The notes under the pieces are model-generated. The model had not been told where the DNA came from and ran no database searches. It worked only from the letters and a program-made list of their open reading frames with translations. The position numbers were made by a program, and so were the translations under genes. Shown here in pieces: positions 21,958 through 31,405 of a stretch of DNA of 64,000 nt. The stretch is from an uncultured Desulfatiglans sp. (GTDB lineage: Bacteria; Desulfobacterota; DSM-4660; Desulfatiglandales; Desulfatiglandaceae), in the NCBI GenBank assembly GCA_900498135.1, contig LR026961.1, positions 2,752,907 to 2,816,906 of the forward strand. The letters are read 5' to 3'. The number at the start of each line of letters is the position of its first letter. Position 1 is the stretch's first letter.

Positions 21958-23490
21958 TCATCGGTATTTCTTCGGATCGATCCCGTACTTCTTGATCTTG
22001 TAACCGAAGATCCTTTCAGTCGTCTGAAGGGCCTTGGCGGCCTGCCGCATGTTGCCGCGCGAACTTTTCAGGGCATCGATCAGAAGGTCCCGCTCGAACC
22101 GCTCGATGGCGTCCTGCAGCGAATCGGATTGCAGCGTCCCGGTGTCCCTGGCGGTCTGCAGGGTGGGCGGGAGGTGGTAGCTGTGCAGGACCTGGTCGTC
22201 GCAGAGAAGGACGGCCCGCTCGATGCAATTTTCGAGCTCCCGGACATTCCCAGGCCAGTGATACTGCGTCAGGGCCTCGATGGCGGGGGTCGAGATCCGC
22301 TTGATGTCTTTGCTGTATTCCCGGGCGTATTTTTCCAGAAAATAATCGGCCAGGAGCAGGATGTCCGCCTCCCGTTCGCGAAGGGCCGGGAGGTAGATAG
22401 GGTAGACGTTGAGGCGGTAGAAGAGATCCTCGCGGAAGGTTCCGGCCTCGACGGCGGTGGCGAGATTCTGGTTGGTGGCGGCGATCAGCCGGATGTTGAC
22501 CTTGATGACCTTGTTGCCCCCCAGCCTTTCGAGTTCTCTCTCCTGCAGGACGCGCAGGAGTTTTCCCTGGCTTTCGAGGGCCAGAGAGCCGATTTCGTCC
22601 AGGAAGATGGTCCCGCCGTGGGCCCGTTCGAACTTGCCCGCCTTCTGTTCGTTCGCCCCCGTAAACGCCCCTTTCTCGTATCCGAACAGCTCCGCCTCGA
22701 CAAGGTTGGCGGGCAGGGCGGCGCAGTTGACTTTGATCAACGGCTGCTCGGCTCGAAGACTGTTGTAATGGATGGCGTTGGCAACCAGTTCCTTCCCTGT
22801 GCCGCTCTCCCCCAGGAGCAGGACGTTCGCGTTGCTTTTGGCGACCTGGGTGATGAGGTAGAAGACCTCCTGCATCTTCCGGCTGTTGCCGATGATATTG
22901 GTGAAGCTGTATTTGCGGTTCAGTTCCTTCCTGAGGAGGATGTTCTCTTCACGCAGCTGATCGGTTTCCCGGGTGATCTTTTCGAGCAGGCTCACCTTCT
23001 GGGCGATCAGGCTGCTGATGATCGTCAGGAGCCGGACGTCTTCGTCGAGCGAGCTCCCTCCGTCCGGCATCCGGTCGACGCTCAGGGCCCCCAGGACCTT
23101 GGACCCGTCGATGACGGGCACGCAGAGAAACGCGATCTTGGACTTGTCGATCGCTCGCCTTGCGCCTGTCCGATCCAGGAAGAGGGGCTCTTCGTCCACC
23201 TGCGGGATGACCATGGGGCGCCCCGATTCGATCACGCGCCCGGTGATGCCTTCACCCAGGCGATACCGCCCGCGGTTCATCTCCGCCGACGAGATGCCAT
23301 GAGCGACTTCGATATGGATCTCGGAGGTCTCAGGGTTTAGAAGAGTGATCGAACCCCTGTTCATTCCTAGATACTCGGAAAGCAGATCCAGGACCTTATA
23401 GAGGCTCTTGCGCAGATCGAGCGAGGCGTGAATCGCCTTTGTGATTTCATAAAGACAGGTGATCTTATCCAGATGGGTCGCTTCGTCCAT
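21958..23490 (-). CDS. NifA-like sigma-54-dependent transcription activator
   Basis: A 510-residue enhancer-binding protein: GAF domain (about 5-175), AAA+ central domain (about 205-440) with Walker A GESGTGKE, the sigma-54 contact loop GAFTGA, Walker [11 protein letters not shown] and the R-finger region, then a Fis-type helix-turn-helix ending the protein ([26 protein letters not shown]). The order is that of NifA/FhlA. No nif gene is in view, so the target is unknown; the GAF domain probably senses a small metabolite. A consensus promoter precedes it at 23544-23572. No nearby gene shows a clear -24/-12 promoter. Confidence 0.9.
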
Positions 23491-24310: not shown

Positions 24311-25591
24311 TTACCATTTGACGATGAGGTCGACCTGCAGAAGGTCCTGCTTTTTCACGGGGTCGACGGCATCGACGGGTTCGACATCGAAGTAGTAGTC
24401 CAGGCCGATCGTGACATTCTTCGCGAGACCGAAGACGAACTCGACCTCATGCCCCTCGGCATTGGTCGCTCCGCCGTAGAAATCGCTGTCCGGCAGGAAG
24501 TCCGGCCATGCATCCCTTTCCAGCTTGCGGTAATTGTACTTGAGCTGCCAATCGGCGAAGGATTTGACCTTTTTTGCGCCCATCTTGGCGCCGAACAGAT
24601 AACCGGTGTCATCCTTGTCGGCGTCCGATTGGACATACTGACCGAAGAGGGCCGCCATTTGGACCGGTCCCCCGAAATGGACACCCAATTCACCGTCCAC
24701 GGTCCAGGCATCGTAATCGTAGATCAATTTGCCGTTTTTATCGACCGAGTTGCTCTTCGCGCTGTGGACGAAATTGTTCCCCTTGAGGGCGTCGAATTTA
24801 TAGAAAGAGGGGGCGAGCTTTACATAGGCTGCCTCGGTGAAGCTGTACTGGGCGCCGGCCTGCAAGGCAAGCATCCACGGGTCGCTGGTGTCCGCCTTGT
24901 ATTCGTCGAGGATGAACCAGGCAGGGACGAAGAAGAGCTTCACACGGCCGTCCTGCATGCTGTGTTTGAGGGAAGCGGCAAAACCGTCCGGATTGATGTC
25001 CCCGTCCCACAGGAGGTCCTTGGCGCTCCAGAGCGGGTTCTTGAACTTGCCGCCCAGCAGATCGACCCATTCGGCCGGGGCGTACTTGACGAAGGCGTAG
25101 TCGATTCGTGCATCCGGGGTCTGGAAGGTGTCCTCGAAGGTCTGGTTGGTGGAGCGCGGGTCATCGCTGCCGGAGGCCAGTCCGAAGCCGGCCGTCCACT
25201 GCTCGTTCACCTCCGCCTCGAGGCCTACCCGCCAGCGGAAGCGCCAGCGGTCGCGGCTGGGGCTGTTGTCGTTGTCCATGTCCTCGCTCTGATAACGGAG
25301 GCGCAGGTCGCCCTTGAAGTTGATTTTTTCCACCCACTTGGGCAGTTCCACGAGCTTCCCCTTGGTTTCTTCCTTGGCGGCTTCCTGCGCCACCTGCTGG
25401 ATCTCGGCCTTCTGGCGTTCCGCCTCGCCCTGCATCTCCGAGATCAGTTGGCCCGCCTCGTCGCGTGTCAGCAGCCCTTTCTCGACGAGTTTGTTGACCA
25501 GGATATCCACTTCAGCCGTATACGCTGGTCCGGAAAATACCGAGGCCAAAAAGAACGTACAGACAGCCAATAAAAGGAATCGTTTTCTCAT
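24311..25591 (-). CDS. Outer-membrane beta-barrel porin
   Basis: A 426-residue exported protein. It has a signal peptide (MRKRFLLLAVCTFFLASVFSGPAYTA), a short helical segment rich in Glu/Gln (about 25-85, probably a trimeric coiled stalk) and then alternating amphipathic strands with many Trp/Tyr/Asp turns (GDLRLRYQSEDMDN...). It ends in an aromatic residue, ...LIVKW, the usual barrel-assembly signal. This resembles the putative porin families of deltaproteobacteria (Porin_5 type). Solute specificity cannot be told. ATG 25591 is chosen; a TTG two codons upstream is better spaced from AAGGAG. Confidence 0.82.
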   Translation of the reverse strand: MRKRFLLLAVCTFFLASVFSGPAYTAEVDILVNKLVEKGLLTRDEAGQLISEMQGEAERQKAEIQQVAQEAAKEETKGKLVELPKWVEKINFKGDLRLRYQSEDMDNDNSPSRDRWRFRWRVGLEAEVNEQWTAGFGLASGSDDPRSTNQTFEDTFQTPDARIDYAFVKYAPAEWVDLLGGKFKNPLWSAKDLLWDGDINPDGFAASLKHSMQDGRVKLFFVPAWFILDEYKADTSDPWMLALQAGAQYSFTEAAYVKLAPSFYKFDALKGNNFVHSAKSNSVDKNGKLIYDYDAWTVDGELGVHFGGPVQMAALFGQYVQSDADKDDTGYLFGAKMGAKKVKSFADWQLKYNYRKLERDAWPDFLPDSDFYGGATNAEGHEVEFVFGLAKNVTIGLDYYFDVEPVDAVDPVKKQDLLQVDLIVKW

Positions 25592-25995
25592 GTCCAATGC
25601 ATCTCCTTGATTTTAATGATAAAGTTCACAACCCTCTCCTCCTGTTTCTTCCTCCGCAGCCGATTCAGCCTTCACCTCCTCCCCCGGATGATTGTCTTTG
25701 GATAGGGCACTATCCCCCGGGGATATTTGGAAAGCATGATCAAAGCATGAGATTTTGATGAGCGGGAGGGCCTTGCCGGATTGAAGGCGGCGCACCGCGT
25801 TGCGGTCGTTGGACCCGGAAACGCCCTGCCAATTTTCGCGGAATATGCTATGATGTAAACGAATGAGCAGAGAGCGCCTGCGGCCGCTTTGCAAACGGCC
25901 ATATCTTTCTTTCGAACAGCGGAGGCCGGTCACGAAGGCGTGAAAACGCTAGAGGCGCTTCTGGGGTGTGTCCGGTTTGGAAGGTGCGGGCAGCG
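25592..25995. other. Divergent intergenic region, porin / Hfq-like gene
   Basis: About 400 bases with no supported gene. It holds a short palindrome GGGCACTATCCCCCGGGGATA near 25711-25730 split by an inner CCCCCGGGG, and a TATGAT box near 25850 facing the Hfq-like gene. Confidence 0.4.
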
Positions 25996-26574
25996 ATGGG
26001 ATATCTCAAAGGACTCCAACCTTATCTGGAGAAGAACTACGAGCGGTCAATCTTCGATGCGGCCGCGCAATCCCGCAAACCCTGGGAATTGTACATCCAT
26101 GGGCATCGCGTAATCGTATGCAAAATCTACAAGAACCTGAAATACGATATCCTCTCCTCCCAGCCCGGCGGGGGGGAGATGCACCTGTCCAAACTTCAGA
26201 TCAAGTTGCTCTATCCCCTCGAGGTCGCTTCCAGGGTCAGGGGCATGATCCGGATCGATGAGGAGATTCGGTCGATGAATCTCGATCCGATTCTGGCAGC
26301 GGGCGCCCGCCGTTTCGTCAAGAACAAGAGTCTGTTTCCCCTGATGATGGAGAGAGAAGTGGTGTTTTTCACCCTGCTCGAGGGCGAGGTGATCCGGGGG
26401 ATCATCGCCGGCTTCAGCCGTTACGACATCACGGTGCATTTGAAGGGCGGTGTTCCGATTGCGATTCTCCGGCACGCTATCTATGACCTGAAAAACAGGC
26501 GGGGTAGATCCTTTCTCAAGGATTTCCAAGAGGAGCAGCGGGATTGGGAGAAGAGCGATCTTTACGTGCCATAG
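25996..26574 (+). CDS. Protein with two Hfq/Sm-like domains
   Basis: A 192-residue protein in which two segments each follow the Hfq (Sm1-Sm2) pattern. Residues 28-74: RKPWELYIHGHRVIVCKI, then YDILSSQ and EMHLSKLQIKLLYP. Residues 116-168: REVVFFTLLEGEVIRGIIAGF, SRYDITVHLKGG and VPIAILRHAIYDLK, which lines up with Hfq's [27 protein letters not shown]. A helical linker (75-115) joins them. The canonical YKH motif is replaced (LRH), so RNA binding may differ. Hfq works as a hexamer of single domains, so a tandem form could make a trimer of pseudo-dimers. ATG 25996 is preceded by AAGGTG. The domain call comes from reading, not a profile search. Confidence 0.65.
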   Translation: MGYLKGLQPYLEKNYERSIFDAAAQSRKPWELYIHGHRVIVCKIYKNLKYDILSSQPGGGEMHLSKLQIKLLYPLEVASRVRGMIRIDEEIRSMNLDPILAAGARRFVKNKSLFPLMMEREVVFFTLLEGEVIRGIIAGFSRYDITVHLKGGVPIAILRHAIYDLKNRRGRSFLKDFQEEQRDWEKSDLYVP

Positions 26575-26647
26575 GGGCCCGGAGCGCCATCGTGCTTCGA
26601 AAACGGACAGGGCGCGGGCCTCGGGGCGAGGAGGTTTAAAGGCAGGG

Positions 26648-27463
26648 ATGAAGATCAGAGCCAACGATATAACGATCCGATACAGCCTCGAAGGGCCCCC
26701 CGAAGCGCCCTTGGTGACGATGAGCCATTCTTTGGGGACCAGCCTTGAACTCTGGGAGCCGCAGGTCCAGGCGCTGAAGAGCCGCTATCGGGTGCTGCGC
26801 TTCGATACACGGGGCCATGGCGGCACTGATGCCCCGCCGGGCCCTTACAGCTTGGAGATGCTGGCAAGCGACATCTTTGAACTGCTGGGTGCCCTGGGTT
26901 TGGGGCCAACGCACTTTATGGGGATCTCCATGGGGGGGATGATCGGCCAGACGCTGGCTTTGCTGCATCCGGAGGCGTTGAAAAGCCTGATCCTCTGTGA
27001 CACGACGAGCCGGGTTCCCCCCGAGGCCGCGCCCGTCTGGGAGGAGCGCATCGAGGCCACGCTTCGGGAAGGCATGGCTCAACACGTGGAGCCGACTTTG
27101 GAAAGATGGTTCACCCCACGCTTCCGTGAGGAGCACCCGGAGCTCGTGGAGCCCGTGCGCCGCATGATCCTGGATACGCCGCCGGAAGGGTACGCGGGCT
27201 GCTGTCATGCCATCCGGCGGCTCGATTTGACCGAGGCGTTGGGTCGGATCGCTCTTCCGGTGCTGATCGTCGTCGGCGAAGACGACCCCGGCACGCCGGT
27301 CTTCGAATCGAAGGTCCTGCATGAGCGGATACCAGATTCCCGGCTCGTGGTGTTGAAGTCCGCAGCCCATCTTTCCAACCGGGAGCAGCCGGCCGCCTTC
27401 AATCGGGCTGTCATGGAATTTCTGGGCGAGCTGGAGGGCGTCCGGCAGGGATTCGAGGGGTGA
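26648..27463 (+). CDS. Alpha/beta hydrolase, 3-oxoadipate enol-lactonase-like
   Basis: A 271-residue alpha/beta hydrolase. The nucleophile elbow GISMGGM places Ser at 94; the acid is in VVGEDDPGTP (about residue 217) and the base is in SAAHLSNREQP (His about 243). The oxyanion region SHSLGTSLELW and the cap region fit the PcaD/3-oxoadipate enol-lactonase-like subfamily, but these proteins are often general esterases or peroxidases in anaerobes, and no aromatic-degradation genes are nearby. AGGAGG lies 13 bases before ATG 26648, slightly far. Cytoplasmic. Confidence 0.85.
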   Translation: MKIRANDITIRYSLEGPPEAPLVTMSHSLGTSLELWEPQVQALKSRYRVLRFDTRGHGGTDAPPGPYSLEMLASDIFELLGALGLGPTHFMGISMGGMIGQTLALLHPEALKSLILCDTTSRVPPEAAPVWEERIEATLREGMAQHVEPTLERWFTPRFREEHPELVEPVRRMILDTPPEGYAGCCHAIRRLDLTEALGRIALPVLIVVGEDDPGTPVFESKVLHERIPDSRLVVLKSAAHLSNREQPAAFNRAVMEFLGELEGVRQGFEG

Positions 27464-27804: not shown

Positions 27805-28485
27805 TCAGCAGGGGTTGTCACCCGGCTGGAAGTTGTTTCTCTGGTGGCGGGAGATCTCCCCCTCGATCATGTAGATGACCTCTTCAGCGATGTTCGTGGC
27901 ATGGTCCGCGATCCGCTCGAGATGACGCGCCACCAGAAGCATGTTGATCAGGTAGGCGACACGGTCGGGGTGAAGCATGATCGTGTCCTTGACCTTGTCA
28001 TAGATCCGCCGGTTCATTTCATCCACCTCATCGTCCATGAGGCACACCTTGTAAGCCAGATCAACGTCCATGTTGACCAGTGCGTCCAGGCTGCTCTTGA
28101 CCATACTCTCCGCCTTTTCGGTCATCCGGCTGTAGTCGAAGGGCACGTTCAGGGGCGGGCGCTTCGCGATATTGACCACCCGTTCCGCGATGTTGACCGC
28201 CTCGTCGCCGATCCTCTCGAGATCGTTGTTGATCTTGATGACCGCCGTGATGAAGCGCAGATCCACTGCGACCGGCTGGTGCAGGGCGAGGATCTTGAGG
28301 CATTCCTCCTCCACTTCGACCTCGATTTCGTCCACTTCCCGGTCTGCTTTGATGATCTCTCGCGCCAACTCCCCGTCCCGGGTTTCGATGGCCTGGATGG
28401 CCATGCGGACCCGGTCCTCCACGAGGGCCCCCAGGGTGAGGATCCGCTTTTTCAGATGTGCCAGTTCACGCTGAAAGTGCCTCAT
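27805..28485 (-). CDS. phoU: PhoU phosphate-signalling protein
   Basis: A 226-residue all-helical PhoU. Both three-helix repeats show the metal-binding ExxxD signatures (NDLERIGDEAVNIAE in the first, ARHLERIADHATNIAEEVIY in the second). PhoU links the PstSCAB transporter to the PhoR kinase and keeps the regulon off when phosphate is plentiful. It is the last gene of the pstSCAB-phoU unit, 170 bases after pstB. phoR and phoB are not in the window. Confidence 0.96.
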   Translation of the reverse strand: MRHFQRELAHLKKRILTLGALVEDRVRMAIQAIETRDGELAREIIKADREVDEIEVEVEEECLKILALHQPVAVDLRFITAVIKINNDLERIGDEAVNIAERVVNIAKRPPLNVPFDYSRMTEKAESMVKSSLDALVNMDVDLAYKVCLMDDEVDEMNRRIYDKVKDTIMLHPDRVAYLINMLLVARHLERIADHATNIAEEVIYMIEGEISRHQRNNFQPGDNPC

Positions 28486-28655
28486 CGCCCTTCCTTTCGA
28501 TCGGGTTGAATGGCCGCCGAAAAACGCCCTCCCGGTGCGTCTCGCTCATCCCTCAGCTGCCGTGCAGTCGAGCAAGCAGGGTTTCGGTGGATGCTGCGGG
28601 GTTCGAATCCAAACATTTTCCTCGGCCTGTGAGCGGTAAGTTTCTCGACGCCCTG

Positions 28656-29471
28656 TCAACCGAAACGGCCCGTGATGTAATCGGAGGTCTGTTTCAGTCT
28701 GGGACGGGTGAAGATGTTTTTGGTTTTGCCGGACTCGATCAGACGGCCCATGTAGAAGAAGGCGGTGCGGTCCGAGATCCTCGCGGCCTGCTGCATGTTG
28801 TGGGTGACGATGATGATCGTGTAGTCCCGCTTCAGTTCGTGGACCAGTTCCTCGATCTTCTGGGTCGCAATCGGGTCCAGGGCCGATGCCGGTTCGTCCA
28901 TGAGGAGGACCTCGGGTTCGACGGCCATGGCGCGCGCGATGCAGAGGCGCTGCTGTTGCCCGCCCGAAAGCCCCAGGGCGGATTCGTTCAGGCGGTCCTT
29001 GACCTCGTCCCAGAGCGCGGCCCCTTTGAGGCTTTTCTCCACCGCCTCCGAGATCATTATGCGGTTTTTGACGCCTTTGACCCGGAGGCCGTAGGCCACG
29101 TTTTCGAAGATCGTTTTCGGGAAGGGGTTCGGCTTCTGGAACACCATCCCGATGCGCCGGCGGAGGCTGACCACATCGAGATCCGGGTGGTAGATGTCCT
29201 GACGGTCGAGCAGAATCTCCCCTTCGACCCTCGAAGAGGGAATCAGGTCGTTCATGCGGTTCAGGCATCGCAGAAGGGTGCTTTTCCCGCACCCCGAGGG
29301 ACCGATCAGGGCGGCCACCTGATTGCTGAAAAAGTCCATGTCGATGTGTTGCAGGGCGTGGAACGGGCCGTAGTAAAAATCGAGGCCGCGAACCTGCATC
29401 TTGACCTCTTCCTCGATGCCGGCATCCGGATCGGCGTCGGTGTTCTCGTTCGCGGCGGGGATCGTGGACAT
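28656..29471 (-). CDS. pstB: Phosphate ABC transporter ATP-binding protein
   Basis: A 271-residue ABC ATPase with Walker [10 protein letters not shown], the PstB-typical [16 protein letters not shown] stretch, Q-loop VFQKPNPFP, signature LSGGQQQRL, Walker [14 protein letters not shown] and H-loop THNMQQA. About 20 extra acidic residues precede the usual start. ATG 29471 has AAGAGG before it; a GTG three codons upstream is less likely. It lies five bases after pstA. Confidence 0.97.
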
Positions 29472-29476
29472 TCGGG

Positions 29477-30376
29477 TCACCTCTTCTTTTGGAGTCTTGC
29501 GCGGTAGATGATCGCCACCAGGTTCAGGCCCAGGACGAGGATGATCAGGACGAGTGCCGTCCCATACTGAAGCGGGCGGGTCTGCTCGATGTCTGTCCCC
29601 GCGGTGGCCAGGACGTAGATGTGGTAGGGCAGGGCCATGATCTCGTCGAAGATCGAGGAAGGCATCGACGGAGTGAAAAAGACCGCCGCGGTGAACATGA
29701 TCGGGGCGGTTTCACCCGCAGCCCGGCTGAGGCCCAGGATGGCCCCGGTCAATATGCCCGGAAGGGCCGCCGGCAGCACGACCTTCGATATGGTCTGCCA
29801 CTTGGTGGCGCCGAGCCCCAGGGACGCCTCCCGGTAGGTCTGGGGAACGGCCTTGAGGGCTTCTTCCGCCGATCCGATGATGACCGGCAGGGTCAGGGCC
29901 GCCAGGGTCAGAGAGCCGGCCAGGATGCTGACGCCCATCTTGAGATAGACGACGAAAAAGGCGAGTCCGAAGAGCCCGAAGACGACTGACGGAACCCCGG
30001 CCAGGTTGTTGATTCCCAGGCGGATGATCCGCATCGCCCGTCCGGGTTTGGCGTATTCATGCAGGTAGATGGCCGAGGCGACGCCGATTGGAAGGGCGAT
30101 CACGATGGCGCCGATGCTGAGGCAGAGGGTGCCGACGATGCAGGGGAGGATGCCGCCCCGCGTCATCGAATCGATCGGCGGCTGCGTGAGGAAGGTCCAA
30201 TTGATGGCCTTCCAGCCGTTTTTGACCAGGAAGAAGACCACCACGAGCAGCGCGAGGCCGTTGATCAAGGCGGCGCCTCGAAAGAGCCAGAACATGGCGC
30301 TCTGGACGAATCGTCTCTTCAGGGACAGGCGGTTGTTGGCCCCGGGGTCCAAGGTCGTTCTGGGATGTTTATCCAT
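29477..30376 (-). CDS. pstA: Phosphate ABC transporter permease PstA
   Basis: A 299-residue permease with six membrane helices and the EAA loop ([26 protein letters not shown]) that contacts Pst[15 protein letters not shown] is the typical PstA segment. Its ATG overlaps the pstC stop by one base (TGATG at 30374-30378), so the two are translationally coupled. Confidence 0.96.
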
Positions 30377-31296
30377 CAAAGTGTCGCGGCTCCGGTCTGT
30401 TTGTAGCGATGGGCGACATGGTCGGCGATCAGGTTGAAAAGGAGCGTGAACAGGAAAAGGACGACGCCGGTCGCAAACAGGGCATAGTAATGGTCGCCCC
30501 GGAACGGGGCCTCGGCCATCTCGGCCGCGATGCTGGCGGGCATGGGCCGCACGGGGTCGAAGAGCGAGGTCGGGATCATGGCCGCCCCGCCGGCAACCAT
30601 CAGGACCACCATGGTTTCCCCGATCGCCCGCGACATTCCGAGGATCACCGCCGTGGATATCCCTGAGAGGGAGGCGGGGATGATCACCCGGGCGATGGTT
30701 TCCCAGCGGGTGGCCCCCAAGGCCAGGGAGGCCTCCTTGAGTTCACGGGGCACGCTGAAGATGGCGTCCTCCGAGATGCTGCAGATGGTCGGCACCGACA
30801 TGAAGGCCAGCATCAGGGAGGCATTGAACAGGTTGAGGCCTGTCGGGAGATTGAAAGTGTTCTGCAGGAATGGGGCGACGATCACCATCCCGAAAAAACC
30901 GATGACGACGGAGGGGAGCGCCGCGAGCAGTTCGACGATGGGCTTGACCCACTGTCTCAGACGGTGAGAGGCCGATTCGGCCAGATAGAGCGCCGTCATG
31001 ACACCTAGGGGAATGGAGATGACCGAGGCGACCAGGGTCACCGAAAGGGACGCGAGGATGAGGGGAAAGATTCCGAAATCCGGCGGGTCCGATGTCGGGT
31101 ACCAGTACCGCCCGAAAAGAAAATCGGACACCGGTACATCACGGAAAAGCGGTACGCCCTCGGCGAAGAGAAACAGCATGATGAAGGACAGCGTGGCGAT
31201 GGAGGCGAGCGCGGTCAGAAAGAAGAAGACACGGATCGCACGTTCTTTGCGCTGCCTGGCAGGGCCGGTGTGTTGGGCTTTGAGCTTTTTCGTCAT
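30376..31296 (-). CDS. pstC: Phosphate ABC transporter permease PstC
   Basis: A 306-residue permease with six membrane helices and the EAA loop EDAIFSVPRELKEASLALGATRWETI; SRAIGETMVVLMVAGG is the family segment before the last helices. ATG 31296 gives the normal length but has no purine-rich site before it (the upstream bases read TCTCCT); an in-frame GTG lies four codons earlier. A strong hairpin separates it from pstS, which probably lets pstS be made in excess. Confidence 0.95.
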   Translation of the reverse strand: MTKKLKAQHTGPARQRKERAIRVFFFLTALASIATLSFIMLFLFAEGVPLFRDVPVSDFLFGRYWYPTSDPPDFGIFPLILASLSVTLVASVISIPLGVMTALYLAESASHRLRQWVKPIVELLAALPSVVIGFFGMVIVAPFLQNTFNLPTGLNLFNASLMLAFMSVPTICSISEDAIFSVPRELKEASLALGATRWETIARVIIPASLSGISTAVILGMSRAIGETMVVLMVAGGAAMIPTSLFDPVRPMPASIAAEMAEAPFRGDHYYALFATGVVLFLFTLLFNLIADHVAHRYKQTGAATL

Positions 31297-31376
31297 AGGA
31301 GATATGTACACGCCGCAGGTCGAGGCGGCAGGGTTCTTTTCATCGGAGGCGCCGCCTCCCCCGCAGTCAAACGGCA

Positions 31377-31405
31377 CAGGACGCACGGTTCTATAGTGCG
31401 TCCTG
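31377..31405 (-). terminator. pstS-pstC intergenic hairpin
   Basis: CAGGACGCAC (31377-31386) pairs perfectly with GTGCGTCCTG (31396-31405) around a nine-base loop. There is no T-run, so it is more likely an mRNA-stabilising or partly terminating hairpin that favours pstS over the permease genes. Confidence 0.6.

Follow-up and report, generated by a model that had tools for sequence, protein, structure and literature searches.

Within the window analysed here, a 64,000-nucleotide stretch of DNA from an uncultured Desulfatiglans sp., one gene encodes a 192-residue protein that, judging from structure models, is almost certainly a tandem of two Hfq-like folds. We propose that it is a diverged two-Sm-domain Hfq, which probably binds RNA on its proximal face and acts like Hfq, the main bacterial small-RNA chaperone. 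The initial annotation had pictured an unusual tandem Hfq/Sm-like protein; fold models, Foldseek matches and profile scores now speak for such an architecture, and RNA chaperoning is a function that we infer.

The gene (Table 1) opens with an ATG at 25996 and closes with a stop codon at 26572-26574, giving 192 codons on the + strand. This ATG is preferred over an in-frame GTG at 25966 because relatives mostly begin at the same MG in the family alignment, and overlapping ORFs on the opposite strand (26047-26664) were taken as ORF-finder noise. General family models pass the protein by: NCBIfam returned no family at E 10, the Pfam Hfq model (PF17209) scored 11.7-13.5 bits (E 0.2 at 11.7; cut-off 27), and normal annotation would presumably label the product hypothetical. 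A single-protein phmmer search of the PDB gave VP24 as its sole match, which was judged to be chance.

Table 1. Position of the tandem gene and its parts in the window.
Feature	Coordinates	Strand	Description	Basis
Tandem Hfq-like protein gene	25996..26574	+	192 aa, complete ORF with stop	34 aligned family sequences across the phylum
Shine-Dalgarno-like GGAAGG	25979..25984	+	5' of the ATG	Read off the sequence
Predicted N-terminal Hfq-like domain	26035..26223	+	Residues ~14-76	AlphaFold2 model of the N-half alone, PDB match, conservation
Predicted linker	26224..26319	+	Residues 77-108, two short helices	AlphaFold2 model
Predicted C-terminal Hfq-like domain	26320..26499	+	Residues 109-168, with KNK, RY and RH proximal-pocket motifs	Foldseek, VIA-align, invariant residues
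Conserved C-terminal tail	26500..26571	+	Residues 169-192, G-R-x-F-L-K-x-F-Q...DWEKS	Alignment; helical in the AlphaFold2 model

The case for two Hfq-like domains rests mainly on predicted structure. AlphaFold2, given family members only as input, returned a full-length model (pLDDT 90.4, pTM 0.87) of two successive alpha-beta1..beta5 barrels, with confidence lowest in the linker region around residues 91-110. Each half is predicted to have the N-terminal helix and the bent, five-stranded barrel of an Sm fold, with elements at H19-26, E29-34, E38-47, E51-55, E61-65 and E69-74 in the N-half and at H110-118, E122-127, E131-140, E144-148, E154-158 and E162-167 in the C-half. Hfq accounts for 49 of the first 50 Foldseek rows against the PDB for the full model; the C-half superposes on Listeria Hfq at 0.6 Å over 56-57 residues, and VIA-align places S. 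aureus Hfq on the whole two-domain model at 0.6 Å over 58 residues (Z 6.7). When the N-half was modelled alone from 34 sequences (pLDDT 85.7, pTM 0.68), its best PDB match was Hfq of Synechocystis (3hfo; Z 9.7, 1.4 Å over 64 residues), followed by Hfq of Caulobacter, M. jannaschii and E. coli, and the sole unrelated row of similar Z was a designed SH3-like small beta-barrel. Barrels of 60 residues can be expected to give only modest Foldseek E-values, and single hits here stand at 2e-3, so the evidence lies in the consistency with which Hfq recurs across the match list. The Hfq strand pattern that had been read in both halves is thus borne out in the AlphaFold2 model, and the sequence contains the motif just as it was quoted, G..I..FSRYDITV.LK ... 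ILRHAI. The lack of an Sm fold in either half, which had been named as the result that would tell against the reading, was not observed: structure models yielded Hfq-like barrels in both halves with Hfq as the best structural match; the proposed first domain (residues 28-74) stands as a predicted fold, and its boundary has to be moved outward to take in the helix that begins at residue 19.

Profile comparisons point the same way for the C-half. The family profile searched against the PDB gave its three best matches to Hfq, one sequence from S. aureus and two from M. jannaschii (E 0.14-0.24), and hhalign scored the C-half against eight Desulfobacterota Hfq at 32.6, where shuffled columns averaged 10.8 (sd 2.3) and none of 150 scored as high. 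The N-half profile was not significant against Hfq directly (75 of 150 shuffles as high). The two halves do resemble each other, since their profiles align at 20.4 to 24.6 and beat all 150 shuffles in each direction; together with the match of each half to Hfq structures, this supports a predicted pair of Hfq domains. Within the family, the best Pfam Hfq match has E 0.0014, below the gathering score, and the best PF17209 score of a class member is 20.4 bits, in its own C-half and short of the cut-off.

Sm and S1 domains are both small beta-barrels, and sequence alone does not separate them here because the C-half scores alike for both: hhalign against one NusA S1 domain gave 33.8, about equal to the Hfq value, and Pfam S1 (PF00575) matches as many family members as Pfam Hfq (10 of 30, best E 0.0029), with scores below cut-off where shown. 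NusA S1 regions also appear in the PDB profile list, and NusA is one weak genome match of the family profile. Were the C-half an S1/OB domain rather than Sm, the protein would be an S1-type RNA binder, a reading that we consider very improbable. The S1 similarity is short, spanning 36-38 positions around beta2-beta4, whereas the Hfq similarity covers 52-60 positions and takes in both the N-terminal helix and the R-H motif; S1 is an OB fold that lacks the Hfq helix, and the Sm-like AlphaFold2 model superposes on Hfq across the whole C domain. In neither structure search does an S1 protein rank among the first 50 rows, an absence that by itself does not exclude S1. The structure models favour Sm because the Hfq match spans the entire domain, helix and R-H turn included.

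The proximal uridine pocket of Hfq is formed by Gln8, Phe42, Lys56 and His57 (PMC5379935). In the register given by structural alignment (109 = Hfq 8, 159 = Hfq 56), the C-half equivalents K109, Y143 (F once), R159 and H160 are retained in all 34 sequences, as are N110, K111 and R142. H57 is identical and the other positions are swapped for similar or related residues (Q8 to K, D9 to N), such that the C-half shares with canonical Hfq the pocket pattern Q/K8, D/N9, Q/K/R41, F/Y42, K/R56 and H57. The altered YKH motif of the initial annotation is LRH in the C-half (L in 33 of 34, R-H in all), and the N-half keeps only its lysine: K66 (= K56) is invariant there and position 50 (= F42) is always aromatic, while the H57 equivalent is T, V, L or I, with one H among the 34 sequences. 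The distal A-site of E. coli Hfq (Y25, G29, K31, Q33, Q52, T61) corresponds in the C-half to T126, G130, I/V132, K/R134, V155 and D164, of which only G29 is kept. This site also differs between Gram-positive and Gram-negative Hfq.

Homologues were found by protein and profile searches in 31 of the 85 genomes of the same class (in one, the gene is split over two contigs), among them 13 of the 30 best-quality class genomes, and in five further carriers from three other families of the phylum. The patchy distribution means that the tandem protein is not indispensable to the lineage. Family members align nearly without gaps across about 190 residues, at identities to the window protein as low as 34%, and the C-half motifs persist even in the most distant of them; members resemble one another more in the C-half (mean pairwise identity 0.69) than in the N-half (0.43). 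Within the C-terminal tail, G170, L174, K175, Q178, W184 and K186 are invariant in a 30-sequence alignment. Two weak profile matches, L053 (NusA) and L054 (where neither a NusA-like nor an Hfq-like gene was recognised), were not counted as members. No relatives were found in viral contigs, phages or plasmids, and the gene therefore bears no sign of phage or plasmid origin.

Canonical Hfq appears to be missing wherever the tandem form occurs. The search for an hfq gene elsewhere in the genome, which the initial annotation had suggested, found none in the single contig (4.80 Mb, 98% complete) that makes up the window genome. PF17209 reached its cut-off in none of the 85 class genomes, and no canonical Hfq was found in any carrier, including the five outside the class. 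The search itself works, because the same model detects Hfq in 96 of 395 phylum genomes and 5 of 14 control genomes. Across phyla the classic neighbours of hfq are miaA and mutL (PMC11607428). The miaA of the window genome adjoins mutL 1.8 Mb from the tandem gene, with no hfq there, and the tandem gene lacks the miaA/mutL/hflX adjacency of the classic Hfq clade. These absences are consistent with replacement of canonical Hfq by the tandem form; they are no statistical proof of it, as related genomes within a lineage do not count as independent observations, and many class genomes have neither form. Phylum-wide, roughly three in four of the 395 genomes lack a recognisable canonical Hfq, and the tandem form too is absent from most of those; further cryptic Hfq forms may exist in the phylum.

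In the window, the tandem gene lies by itself, flanked by a divergent porin gene on one side and, 73 bp downstream, by an alpha/beta-hydrolase gene. Two minus-strand genes lie upstream, one for a GAF-sigma54 activator (21958-23490) and one for a Porin_5 outer-membrane protein (24311-25597); shortly downstream of the hydrolase gene is a minus-strand phoU-pstB-pstA-pstC-like phosphate uptake cluster (27805-31386), whose PhoU and ABC ATPase were confirmed by Pfam. The description of the gene as standing alone holds for this genome and a minority of relatives and fails for 23 of the 31 class genomes, in which, counted from locus coordinates, a receiver-only response regulator sits directly upstream on the same strand (for example L064:5440-5940, and 22 other loci). 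All 23 of these genomes belong to the family of the window genome. This regulator has 166 residues with a conserved tail, KRFGPDWKE..FF.EFE, and lies about 6-165 bp from the tandem gene; other neighbours vary among the linked genomes. Its kept linkage suggests co-expression, perhaps interaction. Exclusive pairing was ruled out: a class genome can carry as many as 20 members of the regulator family, and only the linkage of one copy stands out. Nor is the linkage obligatory, since none of the 18 copies in the window genome (e.g. G000:C1:3582205-3582693) adjoins the tandem gene. In two carriers from another class of the phylum (loci L067 and L074, genomes G213 and G185), the tandem gene is preceded by genes resembling adenosylhomocysteinase and plsY (glycerol-3-phosphate acyltransferase), a neighbourhood shared by both and different from that of the window's class.

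The two-domain architecture is not new, because a tandem Hfq has already been described in Sphingomonadales. The initial annotation took bacterial Hfq to be always single-domain, a premise contradicted by the published two-Sm Hfq of Zymomonas mobilis (ZMO0347) and six other Sphingomonadales, for which a three-chain ring was proposed and whose Zymomonas mutant is stress-sensitive (PMC2877685). The Zymomonas protein likewise has two Hfq domains per chain and is a recognised Hfq, with 60% identity to E. coli Hfq by BlastP (PMC2877685); in contrast to these alphaproteobacterial proteins, the deltaproteobacterial halves have diverged strongly from Hfq and from each other, and their distribution suggests an independent origin. 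The novelty here is that a lineage otherwise lacking recognisable Hfq has a separate family, deeply diverged, unequal in its two halves and below family-model detection. Our search of the open-access literature found no paper describing a deltaproteobacterial tandem Hfq.

Relative to canonical bacterial Hfq (PF17209; E. coli, S. aureus), the predicted Sm fold with its N-terminal helix is shared, whereas the fusion of two domains, the score under the Pfam cut-off, the loss of the distal A-site residues and Y55, and the position away from miaA are not. Archaeal and cyanobacterial Hfq come close in part, M. jannaschii MJ1435 being among the best profile matches of the C-half and Synechocystis 3hfo among the best structure matches of the N-half; unlike the window protein, both are single-domain. 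BB0268/FlgV of Borrelia, once called Hfq, was disproved as such by structure prediction and by co-immunoprecipitation without RNA (PMC11607428); on the structural test, where BB0268 failed, the tandem protein as modelled here succeeds.

We propose that three chains would close into a pseudo-hexameric ring in which N and C domains alternate. The proximal face of such a ring would bind the U-rich 3' ends of RNAs through K109/N110/K111, R142/Y143 and R159/H160 of the C domains, with K66 and Y50 of the N domains assisting, so that the C domain may have retained the U-binding face and the N domain become its partner, closing the ring and supplying half of each site. Alternatively, six chains could form two stacked hexameric rings, C domains in one and N domains in the other, twelve domains in all. 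The strong difference between the halves (identity 0.43 and 0.69) could be expected of separate rings, and stacked Hfq rings have been seen in crystals (PMC5379935), but the three-chain ring is the simplest geometry for a fused dimer, as proposed for Zymomonas Hfq (PMC2877685), and we regard the stacked form as unlikely.

A rival account of function accepts the Hfq-like fold and gives up the chaperone: the protein, Sm-like and either monomeric or ring-forming, would bind something else, such as a small nucleotide, a protein partner (e.g. the linked regulator) or one particular RNA. It would accommodate the missing distal-face residues, the patchy distribution, the regulator linked in 23 of 31 class genomes, and a conserved C-tail and linker that have no Hfq counterpart. 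Its difficulties are the invariant proximal-pocket positions, hard to explain without RNA or a nucleotide as ligand there, and the absence of a canonical Hfq that could fill the chaperone role; we judge it rather improbable. On the preferred reading as an Hfq-like RNA binder, small RNAs would be stabilised or annealed by the tandem protein in a lineage without standard Hfq. Many relatives would probably co-express it with the receiver-only response regulator, which may couple how much of it is made, or how active it is, to a two-component signal. We advance only tentatively, as a doubtful extension, that the protein is a cryptic Hfq replacement across the whole deltaproteobacterial lineage: an asymmetric three-chain pseudo-hexamer with three full and three half uridine pockets in alternation, no A-binding distal face, and regulator-coupled expression in most carriers.

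Overall, whether a bacterium has Hfq serves as a guide to whether it employs Hfq-dependent small RNAs, and as Pfam and NCBIfam miss the diverged tandem form, some groups regarded as Hfq-less may have one. A natural ring of two domain kinds would also test which faces of Hfq serve which function, and could be compared with the hetero-oligomeric Sm/LSm rings of eukaryotes.
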